The notes beneath the pieces were generated by a model. The model ran no database searches, was not told where the DNA came from, and saw only the letters and a list, made by a program, of their open reading frames with translations. A DNA stretch of 64,000 nt from Haloplanus salinarum (GTDB lineage: Archaea; Halobacteriota; Halobacteria; Halobacteriales; Haloferacaceae), in assembly GCF_024498175.1 (NCBI RefSeq), contig NZ_CP101823.1, forward strand, positions 186,001-250,000. Reading direction: 5' to 3'. This document shows, in pieces, positions 43,627 to 49,577 of the stretch (position 1 is its first letter; every line of letters begins with the position of its first letter). A program made the position numbers and the translations under genes.

Positions 43627-44820
43627 ATGCAGACGCTCATTCTGGCGGCTGGCCAGGGGACCCGCATGCGGCCGCTGACCGAACGGTGGCCGAAACCGAT
43701 GCTCCCGGTCGCCGGGCGGCCACTCGTTGCGCATACGGCGGCTGCGGCGGTGCAGGCGGGGGCCTCGCGGTTGGTGTTCGTCGTGGGTTACGAGGCAGAG
43801 GCCGTTCGCGCCCGCTTCGGGACGGAGTTCGAGGGCGTCCCCGTGGACTACGCCGTACAGGACGTCCAGCGTGGGACGGCCGACGCCGTGCGGGTCGGAG
43901 CGGCCGAACTCGACGACGGCCCCTTCGCCGTCCTGAACGGCGACAACCTCTACGATCCGGAGTCGCTCGCCGACCTCTTCGACCGTGGCCCGAGCGTCGG
44001 CTCCTACCGCGTCGCGAACCCGAGCGCCTACGGCGTCCTCGACGTCACGGAGGGACGGGTCACGGACGTCGTCGAGAAGCCCGAGACGCCGCCCTCGGAG
44101 GTGATCAACACCGGTGCGTACGTCTTCCCCGCGGCGGCCCGGGAGTGGCTCGACGTCGAGAGTAGCGACCGCGGGGAACGCGAGCTGACGGACGTCCTCG
44201 GCCGCGTCTGTCGGGAACGGACGGTGACGGCAGTCACGCTGGATCGCTGGCTCGACGTGGGTCGACCGTGGGAACTGCTGGCGGCCAACGAGTGGAAACT
44301 CGGGGAGTGCTCCCGACGGATCCAGGGTGAGGTCCACGAGGACGCGGACCTCCGCGGCGGCGTCGTGGTCGAGTCGGGAGCGACCGTCGATTCGGGAGTC
44401 GTCATCGAGGGCCCGGCGCTCGTCCAGGACGGCGCGACCGTCGGGCCGAACGCCTACGTCCGCGGCGCGACCCTGCTCGGTCCGGAGACGACGGTCGGCC
44501 ACGCCGTCGAAGTGAAGAACAGCGTCCTGATGCGCGGCGCGACGGTCGGTCACCTCTCGTACGTGGGCGACAGCATCCTCGGACGTGACGTGAACTTCGG
44601 TGCCGGCACGACGGTCGCGAACCTCCGTCACGACGAAGCGCCCGTCACCTGCGAGGTGAAAGGCGAGCGCGTGTCCACGGGGCGACGGAAGTTCGGCGTC
44701 GTCTGTGGCGACGACGTGAAAACGGGGATCGACACGAGTTTGAACGCCGGCGTGTCGCTCGCCGCCGGCGCCACGACCGCACCGAACGAAACGGTCGTGG
44801 ACTCGGTCACCCGCGACTGA
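43627..44820 (+). CDS. Bifunctional sugar-1-phosphate nucleotidylyltransferase/acetyltransferase (GlmU-like) 1
   Basis: 397 residues. N-terminal nucleotidyltransferase: LILAAGQGTRMRPLTERWPKPMLPVAGRP gives the GXGTR loop and Lys. LNGDN carries the metal Asp. The C-terminal ~170 residues are a left-handed beta-helix with hexapeptide repeats (GATVDSGVVIEGPALVQDGATVGPNAYV, split here by rungs) and end in an acetyltransferase-like tail. Supplies UDP-GlcNAc or a related nucleotide sugar for surface glycans. A second GlmU-like gene is at 47213. Confidence 0.88.
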   Translation: MQTLILAAGQGTRMRPLTERWPKPMLPVAGRPLVAHTAAAAVQAGASRLVFVVGYEAEAVRARFGTEFEGVPVDYAVQDVQRGTADAVRVGAAELDDGPFAVLNGDNLYDPESLADLFDRGPSVGSYRVANPSAYGVLDVTEGRVTDVVEKPETPPSEVINTGAYVFPAAAREWLDVESSDRGERELTDVLGRVCRERTVTAVTLDRWLDVGRPWELLAANEWKLGECSRRIQGEVHEDADLRGGVVVESGATVDSGVVIEGPALVQDGATVGPNAYVRGATLLGPETTVGHAVEVKNSVLMRGATVGHLSYVGDSILGRDVNFGAGTTVANLRHDEAPVTCEVKGERVSTGRRKFGVVCGDDVKTGIDTSLNAGVSLAAGATTAPNETVVDSVTRD

Positions 44821-44877: not shown

Positions 44878-44889
44878 CGTATATACTCC
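44878..44889 (+). promoter_or_regulatory. Strong TATA box before the interrupted VanZ-like gene
   Basis: CGTATATACTCC is centred about 27 bp before the ATG at 44910, a near-ideal leaderless promoter. Its good state contrasts with the two nonsense codons in the gene. Confidence 0.6.
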
Positions 44890-44909: not shown

Positions 44910-45323
44910 ATGCGTACGGTTCCCGTTCCGCTCGTCCCCCGCCGCCTTCGGTATCTCGGGGCCGGTGGGGTCGCCGCCGCGTTGCTTTAGTTCTCCGTCC
45001 TTGGCCTTCCCCCGTCGTCGCCACGCCCGAGTCCGTTCTGGGACAAGCAACTGCACGTCCTCGGGTACGCCGGCTTCGCACTCGCGTTGGCGTACGCGAC
45101 TGCCCACCTTCGGGATCGCCTCTGGATCCGGATCGCGCTCGTCCTCGCCGTCGCCGTCGGCTACGGGGTCGCGATCGAACTCCTGTAGGGGCTACATCCC
45201 GACCGACACCTCTCGGCCGCCGACGCGCTGGCGAACGTCGCCGGCGCACTGCTCGCGAGTGGCTGGTTTCTCCTCGAATCGCGGATCCGATACCGCCGTC
45301 TCCGGCGGCTTCCCTCTCCGTAG
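44910..45323 (+). pseudogene. VanZ-like membrane protein with two in-frame TAG codons
   Basis: One frame of 137 codons from ATG to a final TAG (45321-45323), broken only by TAG at 44988-44990 and TAG at 45186-45188. The translation reads MRTVPVPLVPRRLRYLGAGG, ...ALL-stop-FSVLGLPPSSP, then FWDKQLHVLGYAGFALALAY, ...AIELL-stop-GLHPDRHLSAADALANVAGA. FWDKxxHxxxY and IELLQ...LSxADxLANxxGA are VanZ-family features; the second TAG falls on the position usually Gln. There are no frameshifts. TAG is an ordinary stop elsewhere here, so this is most simply a young pseudogene; read-through is the alternative. Confidence 0.82.
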
Positions 45324-45405: not shown

Positions 45406-47208
45406 TCACTCGACGGTGACGCTCTTCGCGAGGTTCCGCGGCTTGTCGATCGACCGTCCCTTCTCGTTCGCGACGTGGTACGCGAACAGTTGGAGGACGA
45501 CGTTCGCGACCACCGGCTCCAAGGGGCCACACGCCGGAATCTCGAAGACGGTGTCGACGTCGGTGGTGAGCGTCGGTTCGCTCGTGACGCCGACGACGGG
45601 CGCGCCGCGTGATTCGACTTCCTTGACGTTGTGGACGGTCTTCTCGGCCGCCGTCCCGTCGGTGAGGATGGCGATGACCGGCGTCTCGGGCGTCACCAGT
45701 GCCAGTGGGCCGTGTTTCAGTTCGCCGGCGGCGAAGCCCTCCGCGTGATCGTACGAGATTTCCTTGAGTTTGAGGGCGCTCTCGAGCGCGACCGGGTAGC
45801 CGGTCCGCCTGCCGATGTAGAAAAAGGCCTCGCTGTCGGCGTAGGTCTCGGCGGCGCGTTCGATCGTGGGTTCCCGATCCAACACCTGCTGGACCGCGCC
45901 GGGGAGGTCCCGGAGGCTCTCGAGGAACTCCGTCGTGGCCTGTGACGAGAGGGTCCCGCGCACCTGTCCCAGATGCACCGTGAGGAGCGTGGCCGTCGCG
46001 ACTTGGGAGACGAACGTCTTGGTCGCCGCGACGCCGATCTCCGGACCGGCGCGAATGAAGATCGTGTCGTCGGCCTCCCGAGTGACGGTGCTCCCGAGCG
46101 TGTTCGTGAGCGCGAGCGTGCGTGCGCCCGCTCCCGCGGCCTCGCGGAGTGCGGAGAGCGTATCGGCCGTCTCGCCGCTCTGCGTGATGGCGAGCACGAG
46201 CGTGCGCCACGGATCGCGCTCCCCGTTGAACTCGTATTCGCTGGCGATGTGGACGGTAACCCGGACGCCGGCGTACGTTTCGAGCAGTTCCTTCGCGTAG
46301 AGACCGGCGTGATACGAGGTCCCACAGGCGACGATCTGCACCTCCTCGACGGACTGGAGATACTCCGTGGGCAGGTCGACGTCGAGGTCGACGTCGATGG
46401 CGAGGTCGTCGATTCGTCCGGAGATGGTCTGTCGGAGCGCGCGCGGTTGTTCGTGGATCTCCTTGAGCATGTAATGCTCGTAGCCACTCTTGCCGGCGGC
46501 CTCGGCGTCCCAGTCGAGGGTGTCGGTCGGTCTGTCGACGGACTCTCCGCCGTTGTAGATCGTGACGTCATCCGCCGTCAGGTGGGCGATATCCCCCGAT
46601 TCGAGGTACGTGACCCGGTCCGTATGCTCGACGAACGCGGTCGCGTCGCTCCCGATGAACGTCGCGTCGTCGCCGTGACCGATCAACAGGGGGCTATCCT
46701 CGCGTGCGACGACGATGCCGTCGTGACCGGCCGCCGTCGCGGCGATGGCGTAGCTTCCGTCGAGTCGCTGGGTCGCCCGCTGCACCGCGCTCAGCAGGGA
46801 GACGTCGTCGGCGAGCTGTTCCTCGACGAGATGTGGAATCACTTCGGTGTCGGTCTCGCTCCGGAAGACGTGTTGCTCGCTGAGTTCCGTCTTGAGGGCG
46901 TCGTAGTTCTCGATGATGCCGTTGTGGACGACGGCCACCTCGCCGGTACAGTCCGTGTGGGGGTGGGCGTTCGTCTCCGTGGGTTCCCCGTGAGTGCTCC
47001 ACCGCGTGTGTCCGATCCCGGCCGTGGCGTCGGCCGACCGTGGCGCCGTGAGTTCGTCGACCTGCCCCGCCGTCTTGGCGAGGGTGAGCGTCTCGCCGGT
47101 GAGTGCGATACCCGCCGAGTCGTAGCCGCGATATTCGAGGTTCTCGAGCCCCTGGTGGACGATCCGTCCCGTGTCGTCCGAGCCGACGCAGCCGACGATC
47201 CCACACAT
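45406..47208 (-). CDS. glmS: Glutamine--fructose-6-phosphate transaminase (isomerizing)
   Basis: Makes glucosamine-6-phosphate from fructose-6-phosphate and glutamine. 600 residues from the ATG at 47208, which leaves the catalytic Cys as residue 2 (MCGIVGCVG). The glutaminase part has GHTRWSTHG and NGIIENY. Two SIS domains follow, with CGTSYHAG and ITQSGETADT, then FFYIGRR and GELKHGP. The end KPRNLAKSVTVE is the family C-terminus. Starts 4 bp after the GlmU-like gene stop, so both are one operon for amino-sugar nucleotides. Confidence 0.96.
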   Translation of the reverse strand: MCGIVGCVGSDDTGRIVHQGLENLEYRGYDSAGIALTGETLTLAKTAGQVDELTAPRSADATAGIGHTRWSTHGEPTETNAHPHTDCTGEVAVVHNGIIENYDALKTELSEQHVFRSETDTEVIPHLVEEQLADDVSLLSAVQRATQRLDGSYAIAATAAGHDGIVVAREDSPLLIGHGDDATFIGSDATAFVEHTDRVTYLESGDIAHLTADDVTIYNGGESVDRPTDTLDWDAEAAGKSGYEHYMLKEIHEQPRALRQTISGRIDDLAIDVDLDVDLPTEYLQSVEEVQIVACGTSYHAGLYAKELLETYAGVRVTVHIASEYEFNGERDPWRTLVLAITQSGETADTLSALREAAGAGARTLALTNTLGSTVTREADDTIFIRAGPEIGVAATKTFVSQVATATLLTVHLGQVRGTLSSQATTEFLESLRDLPGAVQQVLDREPTIERAAETYADSEAFFYIGRRTGYPVALESALKLKEISYDHAEGFAAGELKHGPLALVTPETPVIAILTDGTAAEKTVHNVKEVESRGAPVVGVTSEPTLTTDVDTVFEIPACGPLEPVVANVVLQLFAYHVANEKGRSIDKPRNLAKSVTVE

Positions 47209-47212
47209 ACGA

Positions 47213-48379
47213 TCAGCCCCGCTGTACGTGGCTGCCGTCCTCGACACGCCCCGACACGTAGGTTCCGCCGTCGAGCGTGGCGGTGTTTCCGACGATGGTT
47301 CCCGGCGTGATCGTCACGTTGCCCCCGCCAGCGACGTTGTCCCCGATCAATCCCCCGAGCGTGACGTCGCGGTGGACGTCCTCCGAAAGGACGACGTCGG
47401 CACGGCCGCCTTCGACCGTCGTGTTCGGGCCCAGTGTCGTGTTTGCGCCGACGATGCAATCTGTCATCACAGTACCACTCTTGATTGTCACATCAGTTAA
47501 AAGAATCGTATTTTTCAGTATCGCGCCGGCGCCGATACTAACGTTGTCGCCGAGGCTGACGCCGCTCAACACGGCCGCCTGTGGATGGACGACCGCGTTC
47601 TCCCCGATGGCCGTGGAATCCGCGACCACCGCCGAGGCGTCGATCGTCGCACTCTCGGGGATCGCGTCCGGCGATCGCTCCGTCCCGAGGAGTGCGTCGT
47701 TGCCCGCGAGGAGGTCCCACGGCGCCGAGACGTCCAGCCACGTCCCCTGATAGCGAACGGCTTCGAGTCGCCGCTCGTCGATGAACGTCCCCAACGCCTC
47801 CGTCAGCGCCCGTTCGCCGTGTGCCTCGATACGGCGAATCGCGGCGAAGATCTCGGGGCCGAAGGCGTAGACGCCGGCGTTGATGTAGTCCGATTTCGCG
47901 CGGTCGGGGTGTGGCTGTTCCTCCAGTCCGACGACCGTCCGGCCGTCGAGTTCGACGACCCCGTACCGACTCGGCTGTTCGATGCGGGTGATCGCCATGA
48001 CCGGATCGTTGGTCTCCCGCTGGCGCTCGACGACCGCGTCGACGACCGTCGCGTCGATGACCCGGTCGCCGTTCAACGCGACGAACGACTCGCCGAGATG
48101 CGATTCCGCCTGTAACAGTGCGTGTCCGGTCCCGAGTTGTGGGTCCTGGACGACGTACGAGATATCCAAGTCGCCGTAGCTGTCCTCGAAGTGACTCTGG
48201 ATGCGATCACGATTCGAGCCGACGACGATCAGTACCTCGGTGATCGCCGTCCGGGTGAGCGCGTCGACGATGTGCTCCAGGATGGGCCGATTCGCGACCG
48301 GGAGCATGGGCTTCGGACGGTTCTCCGTGAGCGGCCAGAGCCGCCGTCCCTTCCCCGCGGCGAGTACGACTGCTTTCAT
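47213..48379 (-). CDS. glmU: Bifunctional GlmU-like nucleotidylyltransferase/acetyltransferase 2
   Basis: 388 residues from the ATG at 48379 (MKAVVLAAGKGRRL); an ATG two codons earlier is possible. Nucleotidyltransferase loop AGKGRRLWPLTENRPKPML, metal-binding LNGD, and DYINAGVYAF. The C-terminal beta-helix has many hexapeptide rungs (AIGENAVVHPQAAVLSGVSL, IGDNVAGGGNVTI). Immediately upstream of glmS, so likely the UDP-GlcNAc maker (GlcN-1-P acetyltransferase plus uridylyltransferase). Paralogue of the 43627 gene, though not a recent duplicate. Confidence 0.88.
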   Translation of the reverse strand: MKAVVLAAGKGRRLWPLTENRPKPMLPVANRPILEHIVDALTRTAITEVLIVVGSNRDRIQSHFEDSYGDLDISYVVQDPQLGTGHALLQAESHLGESFVALNGDRVIDATVVDAVVERQRETNDPVMAITRIEQPSRYGVVELDGRTVVGLEEQPHPDRAKSDYINAGVYAFGPEIFAAIRRIEAHGERALTEALGTFIDERRLEAVRYQGTWLDVSAPWDLLAGNDALLGTERSPDAIPESATIDASAVVADSTAIGENAVVHPQAAVLSGVSLGDNVSIGAGAILKNTILLTDVTIKSGTVMTDCIVGANTTLGPNTTVEGGRADVVLSEDVHRDVTLGGLIGDNVAGGGNVTITPGTIVGNTATLDGGTYVSGRVEDGSHVQRG

Positions 48380-48848
48380 ATCCACTGATCGTCACGATAC
48401 GACATAGGCTTTTGCCGGCCGCGGCGGCGGGCTGCAGCCGTTTCGCTCGTTTCGAGCCACTGGTCGGCTGGTGGACGTGACCGACGTGGGTATGATCCCC
48501 GCCGGTCGGTGGCGCCATCGTCGCCATTCCGGTCGCGGGACCGGTGAGACCGGACGTCGATCCACCGGCGTGAGGGGAGTCCTCGTGGCTCGACCTCCCG
48601 ACCGGCTTGCATTCGACCGTCGCGACTCCCTCCACACGCCGCCCCGGGCGATGGGGACGGCGGCGGATCGGGTCCGACAGCGGACCGACCGCCCTCGATG
48701 GGCGCGATGACAGCCGTCGGGCACGCCGAGACGGTCGCCGTCGTATCGAGGAACGGGCCACGGCTCCAGCCGCGGGAGCGCTCCCGGCGGATATCACGCG
48801 GCGTGAGGCGCTACACCTTTTACGTGCCGTGGCGATAGTCCATCCGAT
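48380..48848. other. 469-bp divergent intergenic region
   Basis: No supported gene. It separates the GlmU-like and AglF-like genes, which point away from each other. For the forward gene a TATA-like ACACCTTTTACGTG is at 48813-48826, about 28 bp before the start. For the reverse gene AAAAGCCTATG lies near 48404-48415. The rest is G/C-rich and shows only weak short dyads. Confidence 0.6.
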
Positions 48849-49577
48849 ATGAACGCTGTCGTGCTCGCGGCCGGCGAGGGGACGCGACTCCGCCCACTCA
48901 CCGAGGACAAACCCAAGGGGATGGTCGAAGTGGACGGGAAGCCGATCCTGACGCACTGTTTCGAACAGCTGGCCGAACTCGGTGCCGACGAACTCGTCGT
49001 CGTCGTCGGGTACCGCAAGCAGGACATCATCGAGCACTACGGCGACGAATTCGAGGGCGTTCCGATCACGTACGCGCACCAGCGCGAACAGAAGGGACTG
49101 GCCCACGCGCTACTGACGGTCGAAGAGCACGTCGATGACGACTTCATGCTCATGCTCGGCGACAACATCTTCCAGGCGAACCTCGAGGACGTCGTCCGCC
49201 GTCAACGCGAAAACCGCGCCGATGCCGCGTTCCTCGTCGAGGAGGTCGACTGGGACGAAGCCAGCCGATACGGGGTCTGTGATACGAACAAGTACGGCGA
49301 GATCACCGACGTCGTCGAGAAACCCGAGGATCCACCCTCGAACCTCGTGATGACGGGCTTCTACACGTTCTCGCCCGCGATCTTCCACGCCTGCCATCTC
49401 GTCCAGCCGTCGAACCGCGGCGAATACGAGATCTCGGAGGCGATCGACCTGCTGATTCAGAGCGGTCGGACGATCGACGCCATTGGGCTCGAGGGATGGC
49501 GCGTGGACATCGGCTACCCGGAAGACCGAGACGAAGCCGAAAGACGGCTCGCCGACGACAATGACGTCTCCGAGTGA
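48849..49577 (+). CDS. aglF: Sugar-1-phosphate nucleotidyltransferase (AglF-like)
   Basis: 242 residues, single-domain nucleotidyltransferase without the beta-helix. Motifs: VVLAAGEGTRLRPLTEDKPKG, LMLGDNIF, VVEKPEDPPSN and GWRVDIGYPEDRDEA. Similar to haloarchaeal AglF, a UTP--glucose-1-phosphate uridylyltransferase used in N-glycosylation of the S-layer protein. Substrate could equally be dTTP; symbol given by similarity only. Followed by a glycosyltransferase gene 57 bp on. Confidence 0.8.
   Translation: MNAVVLAAGEGTRLRPLTEDKPKGMVEVDGKPILTHCFEQLAELGADELVVVVGYRKQDIIEHYGDEFEGVPITYAHQREQKGLAHALLTVEEHVDDDFMLMLGDNIFQANLEDVVRRQRENRADAAFLVEEVDWDEASRYGVCDTNKYGEITDVVEKPEDPPSNLVMTGFYTFSPAIFHACHLVQPSNRGEYEISEAIDLLIQSGRTIDAIGLEGWRVDIGYPEDRDEAERRLADDNDVSE

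Follow-up and report, generated by a model that had tools for sequence, protein, structure and literature searches.

The window (the whole stretch of 64,000 nucleotides analysed here, bases 186001-250000 of the single contig of the genome designated G000, a haloarchaeon to judge from its relatives) contains a VanZ-like frame that lies between two intact genes, and these features are collected in Table 1 together with the loci discussed below. Directly upstream and on the same strand is NT1, a sugar-phosphate nucleotidyltransferase gene with hexapeptide repeats, and downstream is a convergent gene which, from its sequence, we take to be GlmS-like. Three sugar-phosphate nucleotidyltransferase paralogues, NT1 being the first, are arranged around the GlmS-like gene.

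Table 1. Features of the VanZ-like locus in the window, and positions of related loci elsewhere.
Feature	Position	Strand	Remarks
NT1, sugar-phosphate nucleotidyltransferase gene	43633..44820	+	hexapeptide repeats; intact; directly upstream
TATATA, plausible archaeal TATA box	44880-44885	+	25 bases 5' of the ATG, by eye
VanZ-like frame, very probable pseudogene	44910..45323	+	137 codons, M1 to P137, plus terminal TAG
First in-frame TAG, codon 27	44988-44990	+	Tyr 16, Val 7, Ala 3, His 1, gap 2 in 29 relatives
Second in-frame TAG, codon 93	45186-45188	+	Gln in 29 of 29 relatives
Terminal TAG, codon 138	45321-45323	+	at the family's usual C-terminal end
GlmS-like gene	45406..47247	-	convergent; downstream; intact; named from its sequence
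Second nucleotidyltransferase paralogue	47213-48385
Third nucleotidyltransferase paralogue	48849-49577
G002, partial NT1 copy, VanZ start and TnpB-type ORF	L065 4207-5921
VanZ beside AglB/STT3-like gene	L070 3614-6387
VanZ beside AglB/STT3-like gene	L071 1881-5606
VanZ beside AglB/STT3-like gene	L315 4675-9192		G119
VanZ beside AglB/STT3-like gene	L067 3778-9003
VanZ beside AglB/STT3-like gene	L074 3909-6753
VanZ beside AglB/STT3-like gene	L306 3317-9885
tRNA-Arg(UCU) with intron	G000:C1:2745519-2745618; L098 1501-1600	-	called tRNA-Pyl (CTA) by ARAGORN
tRNA-like sequence L126	G000:C1:2000860-2000979	+	120 bases; 36.8 bits
T-arm-like 3' tRNA pieces	G000:C1:684048/684140/684233
T-arm-like 3' tRNA pieces	G000:C1:1096803/1096894/1096985
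T-arm-like 3' tRNA pieces	G000:C1:2383941/2384035/2384123
T-arm-like 3' tRNA pieces	G000:C1:860961/861069/861163

The initial annotation described a 137-codon frame interrupted by two TAG codons and by no frameshift, with VanZ motifs flanking each TAG and the second TAG at a position where the family usually has Gln; re-reading the frame and aligning it with its relatives bore out each of these points. If the terminal TAG were also read through, the frame would gain 31 codons before reaching a TGA, which overlaps the convergent GlmS-like gene at its end. Because the DNA is GC-rich and both other forward frames of the same stretch are free of stops, the scarcity of stops in the VanZ-like frame says little, and it is homology that carries weight here rather than a low stop count. 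Read through its stops, the frame matches Pfam VanZ (PF04892) at residues 55-120 with an E value of 1.4e-5 and 26.2 bits, a score under the curated cut-off of 30.1 bits; intact relatives score 41.4 bits (G007), 35.2 bits (G009) and 30.0 bits (G015, also just under the cut-off). With the uninterrupted genes of G015, G027, G009, G013, G020 and G045 it aligns over nearly its full length at 44-49% identity (E values from 3.1e-37 to 1.0e-24), so that it shares end-to-end homology with an above-cut-off member, that of G009 (46% identity, E 2.7e-29). The frame retains D45-K46, H49, Y53, E90, R99, D105, N109 and W119, and differs from the family in its two in-frame TAGs. VanZ matches at E <= 0.001 were found in 43 of the 60 genomes searched, the window's own counted, and G000 has a second VanZ-like gene elsewhere (147 aa, 29.0 bits) that is uninterrupted. 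A search of the VanZ protein against genome contigs gave no match, nor did the G015 protein against viral contigs; the plasmid search gave one distant uninterrupted member, from Salinigranum rubrum, with Gln at the codon-93 site.

The residues that stand at the two interrupted sites in relatives are quite different in their constancy. Among 29 aligned non-self places (those returned as loci, out of 55 non-self places listed; one of the 29, G011, is itself broken), codon 93 specifies Gln in every case (CAG 24, CAA 5), while codon 27 is Tyr in 16, Val in 7, Ala in 3, His in 1 and a gap in 2. Translation of the window's copy would be expected to end at the first of these sites, after 26 residues. 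No working protein is expected from the rest, because the later segments contain no ATG or GTG start and offer only a TTG at codon 60. We therefore consider it extremely unlikely that the functional product is a truncated or internally started fragment. The TATA-like box in front of the ATG and the TTG codons at positions 25 and 60 could be taken to favor such a product, but the first segment is very short, the single TTG of the middle segment is followed after only 33 codons by the second TAG, the middle segment alone has no Pfam match at E 0.1, and the last segment lacks ATG, GTG and TTG altogether. By eye, the TATATA was not seen at the corresponding interval of G002, the closest available genome and a member of the same genus.

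A more trivial explanation would be that the gene is alive and that a sequencing or assembly error accounts for one of the TAGs or for both. They have been read in a single assembly of one strain, but the G000 genome is one finished contig of 3.45 Mb with 99.96% completeness, the adjoining NT1 gene is open over its length, and two independent base errors that both create stops within one small gene would be improbable; an error is accordingly a very doubtful account of the locus.

Evidence on the state of the gene comes from G002, in which the window's NT1 has an ortholog (81% identical) that served as the anchor for comparison. Downstream of this ortholog, on the same strand, only the two ends of VanZ survive, residues 1-19 (79% identity) and residues 105-131 (70%), and they are about 1.66 kb apart. 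The intervening DNA contains a further piece of NT1 that spans residues 42-112 (79%) and is fused to the start of VanZ, as well as a 433-aa TnpB-like ORF with a Cas12f1-like TNB domain, a domain typical of TnpB. Hence the same VanZ gene in the same place is dead in G002 through a different lesion. The remnants include neither codon 27 nor codon 93, and G002 therefore gives neither a date nor a cause for the TAGs. At the junction itself, the partial NT1 copy joins the VanZ start at a short common sequence with the TnpB-type ORF next to it, an arrangement that looks like recombination and insertion.

It is informative to consider how much of the divergence between the two genomes arose before the gene was lost. 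The differences at codon positions 1, 2 and 3 are 4, 0 and 14 in the N part of VanZ (20 codons) and 9, 8 and 19 in the C part (30 codons), compared with 45, 36 and 196 in NT1 (391 codons). The VanZ differences are thus mostly in the third position, so that most of the divergence arose while the protein was under selection, a signal that is clearer in the N-terminal than in the C-terminal piece. The decay is slight, with most family motifs kept and no frameshift, a point against the pseudogene reading. With codon 93 excluded, the window keeps 24 of the 29 sense positions that are invariant in six relatives, whereas the same count for the six relatives, leaving out one at a time, gives 30 positions kept out of 31, 32, 31, 33, 35 and 34; the window is therefore slightly worse than most relatives, a weak indication that would fit recent relaxation.

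Taken with the stops, which block the family product in a frame whose homologues include intact genes, and with a near relative that has lost this gene independently, these observations support the young-pseudogene reading offered in the initial annotation: the element is very probably the recently dead copy of a small membrane-protein gene. It resembles the ordinary pseudogenes that nonsense mutation produces in prokaryotes, with in-frame stops, no other gross damage and a different lesion in a near relative, and nothing notable sets it apart from them. That both premature stops are TAG requires no special cause, since 44-54% of the nonsense mutations possible in the remaining codons give TAG and both would be TAG in an expected 19-29% of cases.

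The alternative raised in the initial annotation was rare amber read-through, and an in-frame TAG inside an otherwise conserved frame is indeed what the locus has in common with pyrrolysine or suppressor-tRNA recoding. The machinery of such systems, however, did not come up in the searches of G000 described below. TAG acts as an ordinary stop in other genes, as had been claimed, ending 8 of 38 window ORFs (likely genes, heuristically chosen). The search for pylS and a suppressor tRNA that the annotation proposed gave, for PylS in G000, a best score of 22.5 bits against the TIGR02367 cut-off of 178.15. An RF00005 search of the same genome returned 45 places, 44 of them above cut-off, and among the 43 that ARAGORN typed there was no true CUA tRNA, in an inventory that is incomplete inasmuch as Trp(CCA), Pro(GGG), Pro(CGG) and Arg(CCG) tRNAs are absent from it. 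The two untyped places are L126, which has no CTA in its sequence, and L127, a weak fragment. Scanning for TCTA with a T-arm after it gave 16 places, all of them either tRNAs already known (Gly, Val, Arg) or DNA with no tRNA match, the Rfam check having covered L193 of these places; likewise, a tRNA-like stretch at G000:C1:737143 was rejected for want of a tRNA match. General amber recoding can therefore be set aside, given that TAG terminates genes, that PylS was not found, nor a CUA tRNA within this incomplete inventory, and that the sister genome has lost the gene.

One candidate decoder deserves separate mention. ARAGORN reports a "tRNA-Pyl (CTA)" in G000, but the structure requires a 7-base intron at an odd position. 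If the intron is placed after position 37, its usual site (a parse made by hand), the loop becomes C-U-UCU-A with the anticodon UCU, and the gene is instead a tRNA-Arg(UCU) with an intron, an isoacceptor of which the G000 tRNA list has no other example. It occurs in 12 of 12 genomes of the genus, with almost invariant exons and a variable intron, and the ARAGORN call thus represents an annotation trap for annotators of this genus. As separate observations, L126 is a tRNA-like sequence of unclear anticodon that ARAGORN does not recognize, possibly an intron-containing tRNA or a decayed copy, and T-arm-like 3' tRNA pieces recur some 90-110 bases apart behind several G000 tRNA genes, where they may be sites of repeated integration or degenerate copies of tRNAs.

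Broken copies are also found elsewhere in the family. With the G007 VanZ as query, 109 of 147 genomes of the family gave a match, and stops lay inside 8 of 130 places (the summed matches). On reading these eight, the stops proved truly internal in the window, in G011 at 1427798 (TGA, TAG) and in G119 (TAA); those in G080, G073, G083, G140 and a second G011 place are genuine C-terminal stops. In G155, VanZ is in two pieces, split by an inserted ORF that by eye resembles an IS transposase. Decay predicts such a variety of lesions (TAG, TGA, TAA, insertion), whereas TAG recoding does not. The initial annotation had named further disabling changes in relatives as evidence against read-through, and G002, G011, G119 and G155 supply them.

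The copy in G119 nonetheless provides an argument for read-through. Its TAA (L307 / L315) falls in the same column as the second TAG of the window, that of the Gln found in all 29 other copies, and both genomes have kept the sequence behind the stop well. The G119 gene, which is otherwise well preserved, shares 78% identity with its G015 counterpart, with dN 0.13 and dS 1.09 before the stop and dN 0.16 and dS 0.63 after it, which indicates that the part behind the stop was constrained through most of its history. One could thus imagine some read-through of the stops, for instance with a near-cognate tRNA inserting Gln at codon 93, which would give low-level full-length VanZ. More broadly, one could imagine that in a branch of the haloarchaeal VanZ-like genes the invariant-Gln codon has turned into a stop (TAG in the window, TAA in G119), and that useful low-rate near-cognate read-through makes this stop tolerable; such read-through would lower the dose of a membrane protein. 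In a simulation using mutation opportunities from intact relatives, with five premature stops distributed over three genes, this particular column was struck in two or more genes in just 0.5-1.7% of runs. Some column, however, was common to genes in 15-19% of runs, and this is the fair figure for the coincidence, as the pattern was noticed afterwards. Furthermore, read-through in the window would need a second event at codon 27, where relatives carry Tyr, Val, Ala or His, and the terminal stop of the frame is itself TAG. Constructs tested in Haloferax volcanii lost all translation of a coupled downstream reporter when a premature stop was engineered into the upstream gene (PMC6728339), which also speaks against read-through insofar as a coupling test, rather than a read-through measurement, can. 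Together with the findings on TAG usage, decoding machinery and G002, this makes read-through at the window's stops highly improbable, and we think it just as improbable that the branch as a whole tolerates the altered codon in this way. A plausible recoding candidate is thus very probably settled as ordinary decay rather than a new reading of the code.

It is also worth considering what the gene may have done before it was lost. In several haloarchaea, VanZ is located beside an AglB/STT3-like gene that matches Pfam STT3 and AglB_L1, mostly with UppP (BacA) as well (Table 1). The order is AglB-VanZ-UppP in G015, G027 and G119, UppP-NT1-AglB-VanZ on one strand in G011, and VanZ-UppP-sugar transferase-AglB in G003; in G013, VanZ is divergent from AglB. 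From this neighborhood, the VanZ-like protein probably served in the handling of lipid-linked glycans at the membrane. The open-access literature yielded no paper on VanZ with AglB, or on VanZ with an oligosaccharyltransferase in archaea, and, judged by listing, nothing on VanZ in haloarchaea; the recurrent arrangement thus offers a testable lead on archaeal VanZ-like function. Within the 64-kb window there are no AglB, UppP or sugar-transferase matches, and for lack of an AglB- or UppP-like match there the gene was probably dispensable in G000. The same genome does have an AglB-like gene, accompanied by UppP and a sugar transferase, at a distance of 44 kb, and VanZ is missing from that group. 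Loss of an AglB-like partner does not hold as a general cause of VanZ decay, the AglB-like gene being uninterrupted in G011, G119 and G002. Nor is linkage of NT1 to VanZ a general rule: of the named haloarchaeal NT1 loci, only 1 of 80 has a VanZ match, these being the best 80 of 332 relatives with flanks of up to 6 kb, several contigs being shorter. The arrangement of the window does recur in G007, in which an NT1-like gene (51% identical) immediately precedes VanZ and the nearest AglB-like gene is 45 kb from VanZ on the same contig.
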